This document shows, in pieces, positions 39,254 to 53,109 of a stretch of DNA of 64,000 nucleotides (positions are counted from its first letter, which is position 1; each line of letters begins with the position of its first letter). This DNA is from Roseitranquillus sediminis (GTDB lineage: Bacteria > Pseudomonadota > Alphaproteobacteria > Rhodobacterales > Rhodobacteraceae). A model generated the notes under the pieces. The model was not told the DNA's origin. It saw only the letters and a list, made by a program, of their open reading frames with translations, and did no database searches. Where the stretch lies: positions 1-64,000 of the forward strand of contig NZ_JAFFOB010000016.1 in NCBI RefSeq assembly GCF_016918935.1, in the 5' to 3' direction. The translations under genes and the position numbers were made by a program.

Positions 39254-41365
39254 TCATACTTCCGACCGAACCCGGTTCGCCCGCTGAGCATCGCGGAGCA
39301 CCTCGGAGAGATCGAGTTCGTGGTCGGCGGGCGGCTCCGTGGGGAGTGCGGCCTCGTCATGGCTCTTCTTCCTGGCGCCGGCCCCTTCCGCCGAGCAGGT
39401 TTCACTCTCCACTGGTCGTTCGTCGGCCTCCTGCGATCTGACGGCGAACCGCTCTCGGTTTCTCCTCGCGGCCTCGGCAAGCTCCTTCGCAATCTCGCCG
39501 AGGACGACGGCCTGGTCCGCCGCCACCTCCCCGAGACCCGAATAAACCTCGCGTTCCGTTGCGTCGTCCATGTCGTCTGTCGACCTGGATGAAGGCGAGG
39601 CTGACTCCTTCTGGCCCCTCCTCGCACTCTCGACGGCTTCTGCGCCTTTATCGGGAAGGCTCTGCGGGTCGGGACTGGCTTCGTCCTGCTCCGGAGAACT
39701 TTCGTCGAAGTGCGACGGCGGCTCCGGCAGATCCCCTATTTGAGCCTCGAAGATGCGCTTCAGCTCGCGGTCCTCGTAGTACGTCACCCGATGCGCGAGG
39801 ATGGGGTACATGTTCTGCAGCAGCGCGACAATGCGGGCCCCGCCGAGCATCCTCACCTGCTCGGGCCGCATCAGGCGGGCGGCATCGACCCGCTCCTGGA
39901 TGCTGGTGGCGAACTCGCTACTCTTCCAGGACTTCGAGCGCAGCGTGCGGGTGTAGTCGCCGACGGCGTTGCTGATGTAGGTCGGCGTCTCCTCGTCCGC
40001 CGGGGCCATGAAGAGCTGCATCCGGCAGTTGGCGAGGAAGGTTGCCGCCCCCTCCTTGCCGTAGAGGTCGCGCAGGGAGGCGATGGTCTGCACCACGATC
40101 ATCACGCGCCCGCCGTAGCTCCGGAGCGTCGTGATCGCTGAAGAGAGGACGTCCATGCGGCCGAGCGACACGAACTCGTCGAGGAGGAACAGGACTGGGA
40201 ACGTCTCGCCCTTCTCCTGCTTCGGCTCGGCACGCTGCAGGATGGCGATGGTCTGCTGGAACATCAGCCGGATCAGCGGCGCCAGGGGGACGAGATCATT
40301 CGGCGCGACGACGATGAAGATCGAAGCAGGCGTGCTGCGCAAGGTGTGGATGGAGAAATCCGACATCGCCGTCGCGTCTCTCACGGCCGGATCAGCCCAT
40401 AGGCTCAGGCCACCATCGGCAAGGACGGAGAGGTATGAGCTGAGGATGCGGGATTCCATGCCCGACATCTTGTAGAAGATCTTCCTGGCTTCCTCGGACT
40501 TCGCCTCGTCCCCAAGCTCCCTCAGAACCTTGAACGCCTCCCCGGGCTGCGAGAGGGCGTCGAAGATCGCCCCGATGGTGGGCGTACCCCGCTCGATCGC
40601 CAGCAGCGCCGTCGCCGCGAAGAGCTCGCGGGCGCCATCGAGGAATCCCTGCCCGTTGCCGTGGGCGACGATCAGGGAGGCGGCGAGACGCCGGGCCTCG
40701 GTGAAGCGGCGCCGAGGGTGCGCGGCCGCCACGTCGTCGAGGGGGTTGTAGCGATGCGTCCGGCCCTCCGGGTCATAGGGCGCGAACTTGTAGACCTTGT
40801 CCCCGATGGAAGCGCGGCGGCGCGCCGTCTTGGCGAAGTTCTCGCCCTTCACGTCGAGACAAAAGACTGAGCCCGGATAGGTCAGGAGCGTGGGGATAAC
40901 GACGCCCACGCCCTTGCCCGAGCCCGTTGGCGCGGCGATCAGGCTGTGCGGGATCTCTGGCGACGTGATGTAGTCGGCCCGGCTGCGCGGGCCTCCGAGC
41001 TTGCCGTAGATCGGACCAGTGATTCTCCTGAGCGGTGCCCTGAGCCCCGCTTGCCTCATCTCGGTCGTCGTCGCCCAGCGTGCGGAGCCATGACTGGTCA
41101 GCTCTCTGCGAAAGCCGATGGCTGGCGCGGCGACCGTCATCGCCAACGCCACGGCCCCACCCACCATGACGGCGGTGCGGAACGGCTCCGTGTCGGCACC
41201 GAGCGAGGACGGGGCAAACGCAAAGATCGTCCCGAAGCCGATACTCGTGAGGTCGCCGCCGACGGTCCAGGTCGCGTAACCACCCGCAGCGAGGATGCCG
41301 AGCATGATGCCGATGACGAGGCCCATGAGAGCGAGCGTCGCGATATCCCGAGCGGCTTGCGTCAC
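39254..41365 (-). CDS. virD4: VirD4/TraG coupling protein (T4CP)
   Basis: The 703-residue protein has two N-terminal membrane helices (about residues 8-30 and 62-85), Walker A SLIAAPTGSGKGVGVVIPTLL, and Walker B FPVLFLLDEFVSLGRMDVL, followed by the conserved TIASLRDLYGKEGAATFLANC. The charged C-terminal tail (from about residue 545) is family-variable. It recruits the relaxosome to the secretion channel. It starts 12 bp downstream of the relaxase stop on the minus strand. Confidence 0.94.
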   Translation of the reverse strand: MTQAARDIATLALMGLVIGIMLGILAAGGYATWTVGGDLTSIGFGTIFAFAPSSLGADTEPFRTAVMVGGAVALAMTVAAPAIGFRRELTSHGSARWATTTEMRQAGLRAPLRRITGPIYGKLGGPRSRADYITSPEIPHSLIAAPTGSGKGVGVVIPTLLTYPGSVFCLDVKGENFAKTARRRASIGDKVYKFAPYDPEGRTHRYNPLDDVAAAHPRRRFTEARRLAASLIVAHGNGQGFLDGARELFAATALLAIERGTPTIGAIFDALSQPGEAFKVLRELGDEAKSEEARKIFYKMSGMESRILSSYLSVLADGGLSLWADPAVRDATAMSDFSIHTLRSTPASIFIVVAPNDLVPLAPLIRLMFQQTIAILQRAEPKQEKGETFPVLFLLDEFVSLGRMDVLSSAITTLRSYGGRVMIVVQTIASLRDLYGKEGAATFLANCRMQLFMAPADEETPTYISNAVGDYTRTLRSKSWKSSEFATSIQERVDAARLMRPEQVRMLGGARIVALLQNMYPILAHRVTYYEDRELKRIFEAQIGDLPEPPSHFDESSPEQDEASPDPQSLPDKGAEAVESARRGQKESASPSSRSTDDMDDATEREVYSGLGEVAADQAVVLGEIAKELAEAARRNRERFAVRSQEADERPVESETCSAEGAGARKKSHDEAALPTEPPADHELDLSEVLRDAQRANRVRSEV

Positions 41366-41377
41366 GTCATGTCGTCC

Positions 41378-43180
41378 TCAGAGCCCGCGGCCGTTGTCGC
41401 GCTCGCGACGCGCCCGCTCCTCGTCCTCGCGCTCCTGCCGCCGCCGCACGCCCTCCCGGCGCTCGGCCTCAGCGCGCTCGGCGGACCGCTCCGCCTGGAC
41501 CTGGCGCCATGTCTCGGCGTTGCGGGCTTGCTGCCTGGCGGCATCGTTGGCGACAGACGACGGCGCATAATCGGCACGATTCCGTCCGGCATCAGGTAGC
41601 TCCGCTCCTCTCCCATCGTCAGTTCTCTCCGACGTGGAGAACCGGCGGCCGACCTCCCTGCCCTCGCCTCTCGCGGCGTGCTCCCGTGCCTCCTGGTAGA
41701 TCGCTCCGACTTCATCGTGCATCCGGGCCAGAGCCGAGCGACGCTCGTCCGCGCTCTCCGGCCCCTCTCCGCGTTCGACGCGCGTCCGACCGCGCTCGCG
41801 TTCCTCGGCCGCGGCGAACTCCGCCGCCAGTCCTTTCGAGGGCACGCCGCCGGAGTACCGCTCCACCGTCGCCTCTCCATCGACCCCGTAGCGGGCCGCG
41901 ACGGCCACGACCTTCTCGTCCGCCTCCGCCTTGATTCCGGCGCGGCGCGGATCGGAGGCGTCGATGCCTTGATAGCGGCCGCTGTCATCCTTCACGGCGA
42001 AGTCGCGCAGCTGGCCGGGATCGGACATCATCGGCGCGCTGCGGGTCTTCAGCTCGTCGATCTGTCGCAGGACGCGCATCCGGCTCGCGCCGTCCTCCAT
42101 CTGCTCGACACCGCGATCCATCTTCTCGAAGTTCTGCCGAACCTCCTCACGTCTCTCCTCGACGCGCGCGCTGCTCATGTCGTTCTCCTGCTCTGGTGCG
42201 ACGGGGGTGTAGATGCTGTCGGTAAGGGCGCGCCCATGCGCGATCGCCTCGGAGGCCGCGCGCAACAGCGCTGCCTGCTCCGGTGCCTCGCGCTCGATCG
42301 CCCGGGCATCGGAAGCGAAGCGCCGGGCGTAATGGATCAGCGCCGCCGCCGCGCGGATTGCCGTCTCGGGGGAATGCTCCGGCGCCACCGGCGCCCGCTT
42401 CTCCTCCCATGCCCGGCGATACTCGGCGTCGGGCACGGGCCGGTCATGCACCCCGCGCGCCAGGCGCGGCGTCGCCTCGAGCGCGATCCCCTCCCGCCCG
42501 GCCACCTCGACCAGCACGGCGCGCATGGTGTCATAGTTCACGTCGCTGCGCCGGGAGACCTTCAGCCATTCTCCGTTGTCGAGGCCACGGCGGTGTACGA
42601 CGACGTGCATGTGCGGATGCGCCCGGTCGGTGTGGAAGGCGGTGTAGTAGTCGTAAGCATCGCCGCCATAGTCGCCCGAGCCGAACAGCTCCTCGGCCCA
42701 GGCCCGCCCTGCCCTCTCCGCGGCGCCGTGCGGCGTGCTCTCCGGGAAGCTGACGATGAAGTGGCTGGTGCGGTCCGCCGCACCCGATCCGTCCTGTGGC
42801 ATCCGCCACGCCGTCTCGATCGCCGCCGCCTGCTCGGCGTCGACCTCGACGCCCATGTACCTCTCGGACCGCTGCAGGATCTGCTCGCCGCCCCGCGACA
42901 GATACGCCATCTGCGCCCGGAGCCCGCGCAGGTCCGATGCCCCGCCCTTGCGGATCATCTTGATCACCGCCTGCGGCTTCCGCCCCGGCTGCCCGCCGCC
43001 CCCGTAGCGGGCGATGTCCTGCCTGTGAGCGGCCGCGAGCCCCGACCGCACGAGCCGTGCCCTGCCCGCCCGGTCGAACTCGACCTCCGCCCAGTCCTCG
43101 CCCATCACCGCGTCGAGCGGCGAGACATACGGCGCTGCCGCCCTGCCCCGCGCCAGGAGGTCGACAACCGCAACGGTCAT
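41378..43180 (-). CDS. virD2: VirD2-like relaxase
   Basis: The 600-residue protein has an N-terminal relaxase domain. Motif I tyrosine is in RAQMAYLSRGG, and the three-histidine metal site is HPHMHVVVHRRGL near residue 190. The second half is charged and helical and ends in a basic Arg-rich tail (REREDEERARRERDNGRGL-like), as in VirD2, which carries secretion signals. It nicks oriT and pilots the strand through the channel. The start overlaps mobC by four bases. Its predicted nic site is found about 540 bp upstream of its start. Confidence 0.92.
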   Translation of the reverse strand: MTVAVVDLLARGRAAAPYVSPLDAVMGEDWAEVEFDRAGRARLVRSGLAAAHRQDIARYGGGGQPGRKPQAVIKMIRKGGASDLRGLRAQMAYLSRGGEQILQRSERYMGVEVDAEQAAAIETAWRMPQDGSGAADRTSHFIVSFPESTPHGAAERAGRAWAEELFGSGDYGGDAYDYYTAFHTDRAHPHMHVVVHRRGLDNGEWLKVSRRSDVNYDTMRAVLVEVAGREGIALEATPRLARGVHDRPVPDAEYRRAWEEKRAPVAPEHSPETAIRAAAALIHYARRFASDARAIEREAPEQAALLRAASEAIAHGRALTDSIYTPVAPEQENDMSSARVEERREEVRQNFEKMDRGVEQMEDGASRMRVLRQIDELKTRSAPMMSDPGQLRDFAVKDDSGRYQGIDASDPRRAGIKAEADEKVVAVAARYGVDGEATVERYSGGVPSKGLAAEFAAAEERERGRTRVERGEGPESADERRSALARMHDEVGAIYQEAREHAARGEGREVGRRFSTSERTDDGRGAELPDAGRNRADYAPSSVANDAARQQARNAETWRQVQAERSAERAEAERREGVRRRQEREDEERARRERDNGRGL

Positions 43181-43656
43181 TCGGCAGCGGCCTTCTCCAG
43201 CCGTGCCAGCCCGTCCTTCCGCCGCGTGGCAAGATCGAGCAGCACCTGGAGCCGCGCCTCGATCCGCGCAAGCTCGCGCCCGAGCGCGGCGCGCTCCTCC
43301 AGGAAGGCGCGGTAGTCGGGATCGCGCGTCCGGTTCGCCGCCCGGGCGATCTGGTTGATGTTCCGAGCGACGCCGCCGAGCTGCCGCGTGGCGTCCCTGA
43401 GCGCCGCGACCTCGGCCGCATCGGCCTCGACGAACCCAGCGATCCGCCGCGCTGCGATCCGCAAGGCGCGGTTCCGCTTCAGTCCGAGCGGCGCGATCTG
43501 CGCGTCGAACTCGGCGAGCTCGGCCTCGGTCAACCGGACGGAGAGCGTCTTGTCGGCGCGCCTCGGACGGTCTGTCGTCGCCTCTGGACCGCTCCAGTTG
43601 CCGCCCTGCAGGCGGCGGTTCCGCCAGTCGGGAGTCTCGCCGTCGTGCTTGTCCAA
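43177..43656 (-). CDS. mobC: MobC/TraY-like relaxosome accessory protein
   Basis: The 159-residue protein has a ribbon-helix-helix region (DKTLSVRLTEAELAEFDAQIAPLGLKRNRALRIAARRI) and a C-terminal coiled coil (ERAALGRELARIEARLQVLLDL). MobC-like proteins bind oriT and bend it for relaxase access. It ends where the relaxase begins and lies just beside the predicted oriT. Confidence 0.85.
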   Translation of the reverse strand: MDKHDGETPDWRNRRLQGGNWSGPEATTDRPRRADKTLSVRLTEAELAEFDAQIAPLGLKRNRALRIAARRIAGFVEADAAEVAALRDATRQLGGVARNINQIARAANRTRDPDYRAFLEERAALGRELARIEARLQVLLDLATRRKDGLARLEKAAAE

Positions 43657-43686: not shown

Positions 43687-43720
43687 ATGCGAATGTTCTA
43701 CATTCGCATATATCCTGCCA
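43687..43720 (+). other. oriT: oriT with T-DNA-border-like nic site
   Basis: A perfect 9-bp inverted repeat, ATGCGAATG-TTCTA-CATTCGCAT (43687-43709), is followed directly by ATATCCTGCCA. On the minus strand 43720-43696 reads TGGCAGGATATAT then GCGAATGTAGA, matching the T-DNA border pattern TGGCAGGATATAT-N5-TGTAAA. The RP4/VirD2 consensus TATCCTG|C places the nick on the plus strand between 43717 and 43718. Hairpin plus nic is the standard oriT plan, and it lies between mobC and virC1. Confidence 0.85.
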
Positions 43721-43794: not shown

Positions 43795-44060
43795 AACGGC
43801 TTGAGTGTCTCATCTGTCCTTTCCGACCTATCCGTCTCGACCGGGTTCTTCGACCTCTCCGTCCTCTTCGTCTCGACCGTCTCACGTGTCTCACCCGTCT
43901 CGATCGGGTCATCCGTCCCGATCGTCCCATGCGTCTCACCCGTCTCGATCGGGTCGTCCGTCCCGATCGTCCCATGCGTCTCGACCGGGCTGATCGTCTC
44001 GACCGTCTCACGTGTCTCGAGTGTCTCGAGTGTCCCGAACGTCTCGAGCGTCTTCTTCGG
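43795..44060. repeat. GTCTCGA-type repeat array with two 45-bp hairpin units
   Basis: Two 45-bp direct repeats (43889-43933 and 43934-43978) differ at one base. Each contains the perfect hairpin CGATCGGG-N8-CCCGATCG (43901-43924 and 43946-43969). Around them run shorter degenerate GTCTCGA(C/G) units, ending in CTCGAG-rich copies at 44016-44050. The array lies between the nic site and virC1. It may be a VirC1/VirC2 binding region, like the overdrive of Ti plasmids, a partition site, or a promoter-operator. No stop codons occur in several frames, an artefact of repetition. Confidence 0.8.
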
Positions 44061-44168
44061 CTCGATTGACCTCCGTGACTCGGCCGGGCTACCTCCGAGG
44101 GGCGGCGGCTTCATCTCGCTCAAGGTTGAGCGGGTCGAGCGCCGCATCTTGTGCGGTCGGGAGACGCC

Positions 44169-44897
44169 ATGAAGCTCGTCACCTTCACTTCCTTCAAGGG
44201 AGGCGCCGGGAAATCCACGGCGCTCATGGCCGCGGTGCCGGGGCTCCTCGCGGCTGGGAAACGCCTGGCGCTCCTTGAAGCCGACGAGAACGACACGCTC
44301 GCGCTCTGGCGGTCGAACGCCCGCGACAGCGGCACCTGGGACGAGGCGGTGACGATCCACGAGGCGACGGACCTCGGGTTGTTCGAGGCGAGCTACGCGG
44401 CTGCGGAGAAAGCGGGCGCGGATATCGCGCTCGTCGACTCCAAGGGTGGCGCGTCGGAGCTCAATACCGCGATCCTCGTCGCCTCCGACCTGATCCTGAT
44501 ACCGACCTCGCTCACCACCATCGACATCGACGGCGCGCTCTCGACCTTCCAGTTTGTGGTGAAGCTCCTGAGCGCGAACCGGCTCGAGATCCCGGTGGCG
44601 ATGATGATGACGCGGTTCCCGACCTACCGGCTCAACGCCTCCGAGCGGGAGAGCGTGGAGATCCTGAAGCGGGTGCCGCAGATGACGGCGCAGCTGCCGC
44701 TGCGCAACGCCTTCGCCGAGATCCAGGCGCTCGGCATGCTGCACCTACACGCGGCACGGCTGCGGGAGGCGGGGAGCATCGCGGCGCGTCATATCGAGAT
44801 CGCGCTGCGAGAGGCGAACGTCGTCTCGCAGGACATTTTCGACACGCTCTACGAGGCCGAGAGCACGGGGGCGCTCCATGCCGATCAGACGGCCTGA
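44169..44897 (+). CDS. virC1: VirC1-like ParA-family ATPase
   Basis: The 242-residue protein has a deviant Walker A FKGGAGKSTALMAAV near residues 8-22, DENDTLALWRSNARDS and the pattern GGASELNTAILVASDLILIPTSLTTIDIDGALST, which closely follows Agrobacterium VirC1 rather than plasmid ParA proteins. VirC1 binds overdrive DNA beside the T-DNA border and stimulates relaxosome assembly and strand release. The nearby border-like oriT supports the same job here. It overlaps virC2 by 20 bases. Confidence 0.85.
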   Translation: MKLVTFTSFKGGAGKSTALMAAVPGLLAAGKRLALLEADENDTLALWRSNARDSGTWDEAVTIHEATDLGLFEASYAAAEKAGADIALVDSKGGASELNTAILVASDLILIPTSLTTIDIDGALSTFQFVVKLLSANRLEIPVAMMMTRFPTYRLNASERESVEILKRVPQMTAQLPLRNAFAEIQALGMLHLHAARLREAGSIAARHIEIALREANVVSQDIFDTLYEAESTGALHADQTA

Positions 44898-45543
44898 AAC
44901 GGGCCACGAGGCGCTGTTCACGGCGCATCGCCGGACGCGGCATCTGAACGCGATCACGCAGGAAGCCCCGACAGCCGAAGCGCCCTCCCGTGGCCTGCCG
45001 GCGGCCGCCGATGGCGCTCCCGCACCCGGGGCGCCACAGAAGGCGTCTGCCGCTCTCGCGCGGTCAGCGGATGCTGGACCCGGGACGCGAGCTGACGCGG
45101 ATGTCACGACAACAGATAGACAGCCGCGGCGGCGGCGCCTTGTTGCCGCGAACACGGCGGCGGCCGCTTCCGATGAGATGATGAGCATCAAGATGGTGGT
45201 GCCCTACCCCGCGCGCGGCACCTCCCCGGCGCTTGACGCCCTCGCTGCCGAGATCGGCGAGGACGCCGCGGTGCGATCTCTGCTGCGCCGCGCGTTCGAC
45301 GACTTCCGCGGCGCCCTCGACGCCGGCGAAGTGCCGGAGGCGCTGCCGGCGTACGACGAGGTCGGGGCGACCGTCACCACGACCCGTCGTATCTCGCGAC
45401 GGGCGCATGGGATTGCAGTGCAGCATCTCGATCCGGCGCGGCTGCTCTCCGACCGCGCCTTCGCACGGCTGCTGGCGCGGCGGGCGCTGGCGTACTTCTT
45501 CGAGGCAGAACAGTGCTGCGCGGCAAAGGTCGACCCCAGCTGA
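44878..45543 (+). CDS. virC2: VirC2-like ribbon-helix-helix protein
   Basis: The 221-residue protein has a disordered, Ala/Pro/Arg-rich first half. The second half (MSIKMVVPYPARGTSPALDAL, EIGEDAAVRSLLRRAFDDF) matches the C-terminal RHH fold of VirC2, including the EEDAVIRS-type helix. VirC2 binds DNA next to the border with VirC1. It begins inside the virC1 3' end. The assignment rests on pattern and position. Confidence 0.65.
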   Translation: MPIRRPETGHEALFTAHRRTRHLNAITQEAPTAEAPSRGLPAAADGAPAPGAPQKASAALARSADAGPGTRADADVTTTDRQPRRRRLVAANTAAAASDEMMSIKMVVPYPARGTSPALDALAAEIGEDAAVRSLLRRAFDDFRGALDAGEVPEALPAYDEVGATVTTTRRISRRAHGIAVQHLDPARLLSDRAFARLLARRALAYFFEAEQCCAAKVDPS

Positions 45544-45566: not shown

Positions 45567-46724
45567 GGAACGTCTGATCTACTGATCACCGTCGGCGGAA
45601 GTGGCGGCGGCGAACGGGTGATGTCCTCGACGGCCCAATGCCTGGGCGCCGCGGAGCGCATTTCAGATGATTTCGATAGCTCGGGACGGATTCCGCCTCA
45701 GGCGATCAAGCGTCGTCGGACCAGAAACAGGTTGCCGAGGCCGAACAGCGAGTAGAGCTGTGCCTGGTTCTTCGCCAGCCCCCGGTAGCGGGTCTTGCGG
45801 TAGCCGAACAGGCATTTCAGCACCCGGAACGGATGCTCGACCCTGGCCCGCAGGCTGGCGATGATCCGGTTGATGCGCTCGTCGACGGGATGGAGCCTGC
45901 CGCCCCTGGAGGCCTTGCGCATGACGCCCCAGACCTTGCCCTCGGCGCGGAACGCCGCCTCTCGCTCGCCGCTGACATAGCCCTTGTCGCCGAACACCGC
46001 CTGCTCGTCACCGTGCAGCAGGTCGTCAAACTTCTGGCTGTCGTGCACCTTGGCGGTGCTGGCTTCCATCGAGTCGACCACGCCGCTGTCGAGGTCGACG
46101 CCGACATGCGCCTTCATGCCGAAATACCAGGCGTTGCCCTTCTTCGTGCTGGTCATCTCCGGGTCGCGTGCGCCCTGCTTGTTCTTGGTCGAGCTTGGCG
46201 CGTCGATCAGCGTCGCATCCACCAGCGTGCCCTCGCGCAGCAGGATGCCCTTCTCGCGCAGGTAGTCGTTCACCGCCTCGAAGATCGCACGGGTCAGCTC
46301 GTGGCGCTCCAGCAGGTGGCGGAAGTTCAGGATGGTCGTCTCGTCCGGGATCGCGTCGTCGCCCAGCTCCAGGCCGGCAAACCGGCGCATCGCGTCGCTA
46401 TCGTAGAGCGCCTCCTCGGCCGCCGGGTCGGACAGCGCGTACCGTTGCTGCAGGCAGTAGATCCGGAGCATCACTTCCAGCGGCATCGGCGGCCGCCCGC
46501 CCAGCGGTCCCGCCTTCGGGTAGTGCGGCTCGATCAGCGCCGTCAGCCGCGACCAAGGCACCACCGCCTCCATCTCGGCGAGAAACTTCTCGCGCCGCGT
46601 GCGCTTCTTCTTCCCGGCATAGGCCAGCGAGGCGAAGGTGGTCTGCTTCATCGGGCGGCGCTCGATCGAGGTCGCCGCCAACCTACCAGATCACGGGCCG
46701 ATGCCGAGGTTCTTCAGAGGCTCC
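45567..46724 (-). mobile_element. IS5-family insertion sequence (1158 bp, TTAG duplication)
   Basis: The ends are GGAACGTCTGA (45567-45577) and TCAGAGGCTCC (46714-46724), imperfect inverted repeats. TTAG flanks both sides (45563-45566 and 46725-46728), matching the YTAR target of IS5. One intact transposase gene lies inside. It is inserted just after virC2. Confidence 0.93.
45698..46651 (-). CDS. IS5-family transposase
   Basis: From ATG 46651 the protein has 317 residues: an N-terminal DUF772-type domain (EPHYPKAGPLGGRPPMPLEVMLRIYCLQ) and a DDE domain (GTLVDATLIDAPSS; GDKGYVSGEREA; HPFRVLKCLFGYRKTRYRGLAKN). The D, D and E catalytic residues are present in order. It appears intact and could be active. 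A start ten codons upstream is possible. Confidence 0.95.
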   Translation of the reverse strand: MKQTTFASLAYAGKKKRTRREKFLAEMEAVVPWSRLTALIEPHYPKAGPLGGRPPMPLEVMLRIYCLQQRYALSDPAAEEALYDSDAMRRFAGLELGDDAIPDETTILNFRHLLERHELTRAIFEAVNDYLREKGILLREGTLVDATLIDAPSSTKNKQGARDPEMTSTKKGNAWYFGMKAHVGVDLDSGVVDSMEASTAKVHDSQKFDDLLHGDEQAVFGDKGYVSGEREAAFRAEGKVWGVMRKASRGGRLHPVDERINRIIASLRARVEHPFRVLKCLFGYRKTRYRGLAKNQAQLYSLFGLGNLFLVRRRLIA

Positions 46725-49564: not shown

Positions 49565-49582
49565 ACTTAACAGCTGTTAAGT
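49565..49582. promoter_or_regulatory. parS: parS palindrome 2, overlapping the repC stop
   Basis: ACTTAACAG-CTGTTAAGT is a perfect 18-bp palindrome. The repC stop codon (49577-49579) lies inside it. RepB probably binds both copies. Its position just beyond repC is common in repABC plasmids. Confidence 0.85.
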
Positions 49583-50803
49583 CGTCCTCCGCCGACTGCT
49601 CAGCGCCATGACCATAGGCCCACAGGAAAACTTACCTACCACACACTTGGCCGACAGCGCACGCAAGTAGCCACCTGGAGACCTGATCTCCGTGAATCGC
49701 TCCAGCATTGCGACAACGACGATCGATGCCTGTTCACGCCCCATACATCGCTGGGCCTCCTCCCAGGCTGAGGCGGTGATGCCCATGGCCGACCGCAAAC
49801 GGCATGCGGCATCGTAGAGCTGATGCCAGTGGCGAATTTCGTTCTGGTGGAAGGTTTTCAGCGATTGGCAGTATGCGGTGACCATGTGAAGCGGGATCTT
49901 TGGCATGCGTCTCGTCCCAAGGTCTTCCATTCTACCCTCACGCACATCAGGTTTGTCGTCTTCAGGCGCGACGGAGGCTGCTTCGGCTTCTTCTAAGCTG
50001 GGTTCAAGATCTGTAGATTCTGTTTTTGAATTATGATGGTGGCGCTCATACTGGGCATCATTGGTGCCCACTTCTTCCACTATCGGCTCAGCAACAACGT
50101 TCCGCGCCTGCTCGATCAGCGCTTCAAGTTCGGCTCGATACTGGCCAAGGTCCTCGATCGACAGTTTTCGGCGAAGCGCACGCGCCGTGACGGCGGCCTT
50201 ATCGCGAAGCTGATCCCATAGGCCACGGCCTGGCTGCATCTCTTCGCCGAACTCTGCCAGTGCAGCGAGGTCACGCCGCATCAGGCTCACAACCTCTCTA
50301 AGCCGCTTCAGACGGTTCTCGGCGTCGCGAACAGCCACTGCTGCCCGTGCGATCTCCTCGGAGCGGCGGAAGAGTGGAGAGAGATCAAAGCCGAACGAAA
50401 CACGCTCATCGCCATGTTTGCGCACGTAGCGCTTCCCATTGGGGCTGTCGCGCCGGCCGACCAGCCCGGCGCCGACAAGCTTGGCGAGGTGACGTCGCAT
50501 CGTGGAGCAGGGCATGCCATTTAGGCGCTCGCAGATCGCTTTGTTGGAGGGAAAGACGATCATCTCAGCATTCTCGCCGAGCTCAGCGTCCGGGAAGAAG
50601 CTCAGCAGACCCTGTAGGACCCTCAGATCTCGCTCCGTAATGTCGAAAGCCGTCTGAGCCTTCGACAGCTCCCGAAGAAGCTCCCACTTGTTGATCAGCT
50701 TGCGGGAGACCTGCGCCTCAGGCTCTTGGATGGTGCGTAGATGGACGCGCGAGATCGGCCGCAGAAACGGCGAAAGCGGTGTGTACTCCATGAAAACGTT
50801 CAC
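49577..50803 (-). CDS. repC: RepC replication initiator of the repABC replicon
   Basis: The 408-residue protein has the RepC N-terminal winged-helix domain (KWELLRELSKAQTAFDITERDLRVLQGLLSFFPD, SNKAICERLNGMPCSTMRRHLAKLVGAGLVGRR) and a C-terminal domain with QARNVVAEPIVEEVGTND and MGREQASIVVVAMLERFTEIRSPGGYLRAL. The origin of replication is expected inside this gene, as in other repABC plasmids. It is controlled by the antisense RNA locus upstream. Confidence 0.95.
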   Translation of the reverse strand: MNVFMEYTPLSPFLRPISRVHLRTIQEPEAQVSRKLINKWELLRELSKAQTAFDITERDLRVLQGLLSFFPDAELGENAEMIVFPSNKAICERLNGMPCSTMRRHLAKLVGAGLVGRRDSPNGKRYVRKHGDERVSFGFDLSPLFRRSEEIARAAVAVRDAENRLKRLREVVSLMRRDLAALAEFGEEMQPGRGLWDQLRDKAAVTARALRRKLSIEDLGQYRAELEALIEQARNVVAEPIVEEVGTNDAQYERHHHNSKTESTDLEPSLEEAEAASVAPEDDKPDVREGRMEDLGTRRMPKIPLHMVTAYCQSLKTFHQNEIRHWHQLYDAACRLRSAMGITASAWEEAQRCMGREQASIVVVAMLERFTEIRSPGGYLRALSAKCVVGKFSCGPMVMALSSRRRTT

Positions 50804-50840
50804 GAAGGCAAAATTTTAGGCCCCGCGAGGCGCATTGCGC

Positions 50841-50963
50841 TTGCGGGATAGGAGCCAGATCGCTACGTTCAGGGTGTCAACACTGAGTTTTGTAGCGGGC
50901 TGGCCCCGACGCGAAACCCAAGAAAGGTCTCGTGAAGCTTGCTTCTCGGGGCCTTTTCTTTTT
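50841..50963 (+). ncRNA. Candidate incA antisense RNA with promoter and terminator
   Basis: On the strand opposite repC, TTGCGG (50841-50846) and TACGTT (50864-50869) are 17 bp apart. The transcript would start near 50,876 and end in a terminator with stem AAGGTCTCG/CGGGGCCTT (50924-50932 and 50947-50955, with G-U pairs) followed by TTCTTTTTC. This is the usual repB-repC antisense RNA that limits RepC synthesis. Confidence 0.75.
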
Positions 50964-51002
50964 CTGCCTGTGTCGTGCCTCCTTGTTGTTGGTCGCCCTG
51001 CC

Positions 51003-51932
51003 TCAGTCTTCTGAGCGCTTCCAGCGCTCATGAAGCTCGGTAATCAGCTGTGGCACGTTGCCTTCGAGCCAGCTGACGAAATCAGTGTCTTCGGCCTTCA
51101 GCTCGAGCTTGAGCTGCTTTCCGCGGCGGCCCGTCGTGACGGTCGCTGCTCCGACGCCCGGTATCAGCAGTGCCCGTTCGCGGTTGCGCGCAGATGGCCC
51201 GGATTGGCCCGATTGTTGCGCAGCTTCGAGCACGGCCAGGAAGGCTCTATCGGATTCATCGTCGACTCCGCCAGGATGATCCGTCTTGGCATCTGTTGCG
51301 GCGGCGAGCAATCGATCGCGATCCACATCGGCGGCACCTAGAGACTTCTTGAGCTCCTCCCATCTGGGCCTGCCAATGCCAGGTGCCGCACCGATTACTA
51401 GGATGAGATCCTCTCCGACTGTCCGGACAACACTTAACAGCTGCGAGACGCCGGCCTCGGTCAAATTCAACACCTCGGCCACGCCCTTGTTCGTGCGTTC
51501 AGCCTCGGTCAGGTGATCACCATCGAGCAGGGCAGCAGCGACCAACGCTCGCTCGATAAAGCTCAGGTCGCGGCGTTCTTGGTTCTCGAGCAACTGATCG
51601 CGGAGCGCTTGATCGCCCTCAACCTCAGTTACGATGGCGCGGACCTTGATCCCCAGCTCACGGCAGGCCGCAAGACGTCGTCGGCCGTAAATCAGGCTAT
51701 AGTTATCGCTATCCAGAGGCCGCACCAGGATCGGTACCCGCTGACCGTTCTTGGAGATCGACGCCTTCAGGCCTTCGATCTCGATCTGCAGTCGATCGTC
51801 AAGGCGACCTGCGGTGTCGATGCGACCCGGGTCGATCTCAAAAACGCCACCGCGGAGCCGGCGACCCTCAAGGGCGTCAGGTGCGTTGCGGAGCGTCTGC
51901 AACGGCAGGCCTAGCTTAGGCTTTCTTGCCAT
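51003..51932 (-). CDS. repB: RepB plasmid partition protein (ParB family)
   Basis: The 309-residue protein has the ParB N-terminal domain (QRVPILVRPLDSDNYSLIYGRRRLAACRELGI, NQERRDLSFIERALVAAALL) and a helix-turn-helix (KGVAEVLNLTEAGVSQLLSV). The C-terminal part is RepB-specific. It should bind the parS palindromes and work with RepA. It overlaps repA by 17 bases. Confidence 0.95.
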   Translation of the reverse strand: MARKPKLGLPLQTLRNAPDALEGRRLRGGVFEIDPGRIDTAGRLDDRLQIEIEGLKASISKNGQRVPILVRPLDSDNYSLIYGRRRLAACRELGIKVRAIVTEVEGDQALRDQLLENQERRDLSFIERALVAAALLDGDHLTEAERTNKGVAEVLNLTEAGVSQLLSVVRTVGEDLILVIGAAPGIGRPRWEELKKSLGAADVDRDRLLAAATDAKTDHPGGVDDESDRAFLAVLEAAQQSGQSGPSARNRERALLIPGVGAATVTTGRRGKQLKLELKAEDTDFVSWLEGNVPQLITELHERWKRSED

Positions 51933-53109
51933 TTCGCCTCCACGTGCTCTGAAGGATCGCGGCGATCTCGTCGTTAACGGCGTTCATGGATTCCATCGCG
52001 CGGTCGAAGGTCTGTCGCGTGAAGTCTCTCCGGTCCGCCTCATAGAGCGTCTGTTTGGTCAGCCCTGCATCAGAGATTGCGGTAGACTCTACCATGTGGT
52101 TGGTCAGAACAGACCGACCGAAGAGGCCTCGGGTGAAGGCAATCACCTCGGTTTGCGGCGCGTCGCCGACCTTATAGCGGGTCGGCAAGAAACGAAGCCA
52201 GTCGAAGCGCAAGTTTGCGCCCGCGTCCCGTATCACGCCGAGAAGGTCGGCTGTCATCCGCAGGAACTGTGACATCGACATGAGGTCGAGCATCTGCGGG
52301 TGAACGGTTACAAGAACGCCGGACGAGGCGGATAACGCCGACATCGTCAGGAACCCGAGCTGCGGGGGGCAGTCGATCACGACGACGTCGTAGTCGGCTT
52401 GGACGCTATCAAGGGCCTCACGAACCCGAGCAAAAAAGGCCCGTGCGCCGCCACGTTGGATAGCGGCAGGGGTCTCGTGCTCGAACTCCATGAGTTCAAG
52501 GTTCCCGGGGATCAAGTCTAGACCACGAATGTAGGTCTTGCGGATCACTTCGGAGATCGGGACCGGGTCATCGTAGCGAACTGCGTCGTAAAGCGTCCCG
52601 CCCTCAATGAGGTCAAGCTCGGGCTGGATGCCGTGAAGGGCAGAGAGGGACGCCTGCGGGTCCAGATCAATCGCCAGTACCCGATACCCCTTGAGGGCAA
52701 GGCGTTGCGCGAGGTGGGCCGAGGTCGTCGTCTTGCCCGACCCGCCCTTGAAGTTCACGACGGACACAACCTGTAGTTCATCACCAGCACGGCGTCCCGG
52801 GACGTAGGTTCCGGGCTTTTTCGCGTTGGCTTCCAAAGCTTGACGGATCTGCCAGATATCATCGAGCGTGTAGCGACGGTGACTACCGGCCGTCGTTTCG
52901 ACATCAGGAATCTTTCCCTCCCGATGAAGCTTGCGGAGGTAGGTATGATCGACGCCAAGTAGCTCAGCCGCTTCGCCGCTGGTCAAGCTTCGCATGACTT
53001 TCCTTGCGTCGGGCGGAAAGTGGGCCGCGCGTTGAGCGTGCAGGTTCGACGCGAGAAGTTCCGCGTAGTGTCCAATGGCGACATCAAGGTCCTGCTCACC
53101 TTCGCTCAC
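51916..53109 (-). CDS. repA: RepA plasmid partition ATPase (ParA family)
   Basis: The 397-residue protein begins with a MerR-like DNA-binding segment (TSGEAAELLGVDHTYLRKLHREGKIPD), followed by the ATPase domain with deviant Walker A NFKGGSGKTTTSAHLAQ near residue 118 and VVIDCPPQLGFL. RepA moves plasmids during partition and represses the operon together with RepB. It is the first gene of the repABC operon. Confidence 0.95.
   Translation of the reverse strand: MSEGEQDLDVAIGHYAELLASNLHAQRAAHFPPDARKVMRSLTSGEAAELLGVDHTYLRKLHREGKIPDVETTAGSHRRYTLDDIWQIRQALEANAKKPGTYVPGRRAGDELQVVSVVNFKGGSGKTTTSAHLAQRLALKGYRVLAIDLDPQASLSALHGIQPELDLIEGGTLYDAVRYDDPVPISEVIRKTYIRGLDLIPGNLELMEFEHETPAAIQRGGARAFFARVREALDSVQADYDVVVIDCPPQLGFLTMSALSASSGVLVTVHPQMLDLMSMSQFLRMTADLLGVIRDAGANLRFDWLRFLPTRYKVGDAPQTEVIAFTRGLFGRSVLTNHMVESTAISDAGLTKQTLYEADRRDFTRQTFDRAMESMNAVNDEIAAILQSTWRRNGKKA

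Follow-up and report, generated by a model that had tools for sequence, protein, structure and literature searches.

Between the virD1-like gene and virC1 lies a tandem array of 9-bp units locked to a single period, beside nic and virC1-virC2, and sequence comparison showed counterparts in almost all related origins as well as at the right borders of Ti and Ri plasmids. We propose that, within the plasmid's origin of transfer (oriT), this array is the overdrive-type element, a relaxosome enhancer on which VirC2 and VirC1 would assemble, and put the probability of this reading at about 0.7. Until now overdrive has been regarded as a short sequence peculiar to Ti plasmids. Our comparison suggests that it is one form of an architecture common to conjugative origins across several alphaproteobacterial families, in which the step is conserved and the sequence is free.

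Layout of the array and its surroundings

The window, the whole 64,000-nucleotide stretch of Roseitranquillus sediminis DNA that was analysed, carries the following features around nic.

39254-41365, minus strand: gene for a VirD4-type coupling protein (PF02534, E 7e-102)
41378-43180, minus strand: gene for a MobA/VirD2-like relaxase (PF03432, E 1e-11)
43177-43656, minus strand: gene for a VirD1/MobC-like relaxosome protein (PF07328, E 7e-15; PF05713, E 3e-7)
43692-43704, plus strand: inverted repeat AATGT-TCT-ACATT beside nic, its arms covarying between plasmids
43708-43718, plus strand: nic core, ATATATCCTG followed by C, invariant in 20 aligned loci
43797-44075, plus strand: tandem array of 9-bp period, consensus YGTCTCGAn, ~30 units, defined by autocorrelation, unit layout and relatives; proposed overdrive-type VirC2/VirC1 site
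43893-43937, plus strand: first 45-bp repeat, five units, with a hairpin at 43901
43938-43982, plus strand: second 45-bp repeat, one mismatch to the first, with a hairpin at 43946
44169-44897, plus strand: virC1, ParA-like ATPase (PF07015, E 4.5e-74)
44878-45543, plus strand: virC2 (PF07181, E 3.5e-9; predicted model against VirC2 structure 2rh3, Foldseek E 1e-8)

The relaxosome genes and virC1-virC2 are divergent, and the array fills the space between them, starting 80 bp from the conserved nic on its 3′ (leading) side and ending ~90 bp before virC1. Judging from T-DNA borders and the IncP nic, the cut would fall between 43717 and 43718. All of the roughly 30 units shared one register without slip over ~280 bp. 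Significance was judged from shuffles and simple scores: the period-9 score of the array was z = 20.3, compared with -1.4 at period 8 and 1.2 at period 3, with no period-6 signal, and the highest period-9 score among 1261 segments elsewhere in the window was 5.8. Of the 23 copies of the heptamer GTCTCGA in the window, nine fall within the array. The exact array sequence had no second copy in its own genome or in the plasmid collection, and a sequence search of plasmids for the repeat returned no real match.

The VirC2 protein of the window was assigned to its family by sequence profile and by a predicted tandem ribbon-helix-helix fold. The core of the model was predicted with pLDDT above 90 and superposed on 2rh3, the solved C-terminal domain of VirC2, with a TM score of 0.84 by target length; the same domain was also matched by sequence profile, and weaker Foldseek matches were to chains of the F plasmid relaxosome. 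Just 3′ of virC2 stands a putative IS5-type transposase gene (45698-46681, named from a reading of the frame), and between virC2 and repC a PIN-domain toxin-like gene (PF01850, 46840-47253). The repABC set of the replicon occupies 49577-53109, and its RepA-like partition ATPase (51916-53109) has an N-terminal MerR-type helix-turn-helix (PF00376).

The original prediction had put forward two 45-bp repeats, each with a hairpin, as a possible VirC site. Both repeats were found as described, differing by one mismatch, and the hairpin CGATCGGG-N8-CCCGATCG was exact in each. Their length is five times 9 bp, which makes them part of the 9-bp array. Of 100 shuffles that preserved the 9-bp phase, 3 produced arms of at least 8 bp with short loops, as did 15 of 100 dinucleotide shuffles, and most of the other 43 arrays showed no hairpin excess, their best arms (4-8 bp) being like those of their own shuffles. 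The hairpin was therefore rejected as a functional unit, since its arms are near chance and relatives do not conserve it; it is most plausibly a side effect of the duplication of five units. The 45-bp repeats, too, are a consequence of the 9-bp array and lack conservation among relatives.

Unlike the array hairpins, the inverted repeat beside nic is conserved. Across plasmids 98% of its cells were paired, with 15 double changes, and none of 500 shuffles did as well. It is a likely site of VirD1 or the relaxase. Arm variants included AAAGT/ACTTT, AAGGT/ACCTT and TGTGT/ACACA.

Arrays in related origins and at right borders

VirC1 homologues were gathered from plasmids and from genomes, the genome scan relying on an alignment (a single-VirC1 query had given none); viral contigs searched for VirC1 yielded distant ParA proteins only. 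The nic core ATATCCTGC was then sought upstream of virC1 and was found in 40 analysed loci. A significant period between nic and virC1 was present in 39 of these, 8 bp in 31 and 9 bp in eight including the window, and no other period occurred among the 39. The array lay 3′ of nic in all origin-type loci having one. Many loci are near copies and do not count as independent; with a VirC1 difference above 5% as the dividing line, they form 29 groups. By a second score, z exceeded 6 in 39 of 43 upstream regions and in 2 of 1243 windows taken from other parts of these loci, and those two were not periods because every lag from 6 to 12 scored high there.

The virC1 loci with no nic at this place, mostly those of Ti, Ri and symbiotic plasmids, gave the complementary picture: 45 of 51 were without an array. 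The six with a signal comprised L053, whose contig ends 348 bp upstream, L109 with a diverged nic, L114 and L115, in which nic was not found, and two marginal scores. The four named loci resemble the origin-type class, their contig being truncated or their nic diverged or absent.

Short tandem repeats form readily, and on either strand an open reading frame traverses the array of the window, so that slippage without function, or a by-product of coding, has to be weighed. Against it, an array of 8- or 9-bp step stands at the same position in 29 distinct VirC1 groups and in no off-target window, and the register holds while the units degenerate; arrays of 8 bp, moreover, cannot be codon repeats. 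We regard this explanation as very improbable.

All 16 plasmids with a VirD1 like that of the window fell within the VirC1-bearing set already examined. Typing tools miss such origins, for 14 of the 16 had been typed as non-mobilizable, and the array can serve to locate transfer origins that escape both similarity searches and present typing methods. The original prediction had also held that the repeat in plasmids without virC genes would speak against a VirC site. Across the plasmid collection and the array's own genome the exact sequence occurred nowhere else, and a single virC-less contig of 9 kb (L216, G601:C18) had an exact nic motif at ~1291-1314, no recognisable virC or mobilisation genes and no array. 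Its nic is possibly a borrowed origin of transfer; the contig carries phage-like genes.

In Ti and Ri plasmids nic is the T-DNA border, and there the array was found at the right border instead of at virC1. A search of the border flanks identified exact 8-bp arrays immediately next to right borders, TGCCTTCG repeated ~13 times in pRi1724 and TTCAAAAG repeated 11-17 times in Agrobacterium vitis plasmids; the left-border copies in the Ti and Ri plasmids searched were without arrays. In pAvCG412, which has a single virC1 place, one right border bears an octopine-type overdrive and another the TTCAAAAG repeats. The arrays track nic and not the virC promoter. A border-like site in a Rhizobium rhizogenes genome (L171, ~1501-1560) has CCAG/CAAG repeats of period 4/8 on its 3′ side.

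The classical overdrive itself has a weak 8-bp periodicity. The octopine type reads TATGTTTG TTTGATTG TTTCTGTG, an 8-bp similarity that 8-11 of 500 shuffles attained; for the periodicity of the nopaline-type flank the figure was 0-2 of 500. The same test gave no periodicity of overdrive flanks at 7 or 9 bp. Pairs of TGTTTGTT sought in the Ti and Ri records gave no useful matches.

These distributions bear on two further explanations. An array that fills the intergenic region up to ~90 bp before virC1 could be an operator on which VirC2 or VirD1 controls both divergent operons, and autoregulation is common among relaxosome ribbon-helix-helix proteins. Ti, Ri and symbiotic plasmids, on the other hand, retain virC1-virC2 with no upstream array, the array of Ti and Ri plasmids standing at the border, and a slip-free length of up to ~530 bp is above the usual size of an operator. 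As the sole explanation this is improbable; control of the operons is a possible second function.

The main rival is a partition-like site, on which VirC1 and VirC2 would form a segrosome for positioning or stabilising the plasmid, in the manner of StbA on the stbDRs of R388, any effect on transfer being secondary. A ParA-like ATPase, a ribbon-helix-helix protein and direct repeats are indeed the layout of a small centromere. In small plasmid centromeres (ParG, omega) ribbon-helix-helix proteins that have a ParA partner read short repeats of constant spacing in a cooperative way; these centromeres differ from the window array in having a defined unit sequence of 7-8 bp and in serving partition. 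The R388 stbDRs serve stability and also modulate transfer (PMC3098194). Opposed to a partition role are the repABC set that the replicon already has and the fact that arrays follow nic, including to right borders far from virC1 and not to left-border copies. Because arrays stand at nic and at right borders, and not at left borders, transfer fits better than segregation, and we judge partition an unlikely primary role.

Comparison with known systems and proposed assembly

The overdrive-type reading draws on position and company. Like the octopine and nopaline overdrives, with their 8-bp periodic flanks, the array adjoins a VirD2-type nic on a plasmid that has virC1 and virC2. The Ti overdrive is ~24 bp of TGTTTGTT-like sequence that lies beyond the right border, on the 5′ side of nic in the nicked strand, whereas the window array is ~280 bp of other sequence with a 9-bp step, 3′ of nic. 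The absence of any known overdrive sequence, as first noted, was borne out, no TGTTTGTT-type core being present within 42-46 kb. The opposite side of nic and the period of 9 instead of 8 count against the overdrive model, and as core sequence, step and side all differ, the array is not to be classed as an overdrive; it appears, rather, to work like one. What stood of the suggested overdrive-like site was its position beside a border-like nic and virC1/virC2, strengthened by the arrays that follow nic to Ti and Ri right borders, and what fell was the hairpin-bearing repeat as its unit.

A further comparison is with the T-DNA transfer stimulator sequence (TSS) of pRi8196 (Hansen et al. 1992, cited in PMC5030305). 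The TSS reportedly consists of 8-bp repeats in series next to the right border, and the right-border arrays of pRi1724 and the A. vitis plasmids are of this reported kind. From the window array the TSS differs in its step (8 against 9), its unit and its side of nic.

In its place on the leading side of nic the window array resembles the TraK region of RP4 and the stbDRs of R388, unlike overdrive. In both systems (StbABC in R388), as in the window, direct repeats separate oriT from an operon that encodes a ParA-like ATPase together with a DNA-binding partner and is oriented divergently to the relaxosome genes. The repeats beside the R388 oriT are bound by StbA and adjoin the gene for the ParA-like StbB (PMC3098194). 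They differ from the window array in an 11-bp spacing, which our period test recovered, in a conserved TTGCATCAT unit, in StbA as partner and in a MOBF relaxase; with its period of 9 and another unit, the window array is not of the stbDR type.

According to reviews, overdrive is bound by VirC1, which enhances nicking, and VirC2 interacts with VirC1, VirD1 and VirD2 (PMC4285021). In the proposed mechanism VirC2 would dock once per unit, its C-terminal ribbon-helix-helix domain acting as a built-in dimer, and would build a regular filament along the array, which the ParA-like VirC1 would join. The resulting complex would aid VirD1 and the relaxase in nicking at nic, and would deliver the relaxosome to the VirD4 coupling protein.

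Step and sequence of the units

Unit sequences varied among plasmids and were no more alike than random. At low VirC2 identity the mean unit similarity over the 29 groups was 0.44, against 0.42 for base-permuted units, and it rose among close relatives only. Among 23 units of 8 bp, a hidden common code was slight in four letters (z 2.6) and absent in purine/pyrimidine or strong/weak classes. Degenerate units nevertheless stayed in phase: 856 of 1059 short gaps were exact multiples of the step, and slip-free runs extended up to 531 bp. That related plasmids share a step of 8 or 9 bases with different letters suggests that spacing matters more than sequence. A fixed step would suit protein-protein packing along the DNA, and the unit sequence could drift or be replaced as tandem duplication homogenises the array.

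The idea that unit sequence tracks VirC2 specifically was not supported. Its similarity followed VirC2 and VirC1 equally (r = 0.23 for each), so that neither is singled out as the partner. Moreover, VirC2 from pRi1724 and VirC2 from pAvCG412, an A. vitis plasmid, have a common first ribbon strand, KVQVFLSARPP, and the array units of the two plasmids are unrelated, which makes VirC2 doubtful as a reader of sequence; if it is the reader, these comparisons suggest that it reads the step more than the letters. Recognition by spacing, in which the enhancer would be set by a step of 8 or 9 bp and one VirC2 would serve unrelated units, as in pAvCG412, is a tentative extension that we hold with less than even confidence. 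Were it true, overdrive would represent an eroded example of a broad class of DNA sites encoded by their period. How VirC1 and VirC2 recognise overdrive is an old question, and it becomes testable by separating step from sequence.

On the VirC1 tree the 9-bp step is found at two or more unconnected positions, unless it arose a single time and was lost again in later lineages. Upstream of virC1 in an Acuticoccus plasmid (L041) the array has a lag of 17, with steps of 8 and 9 apparently alternating, and this array could represent a transitional form linking the two periods.
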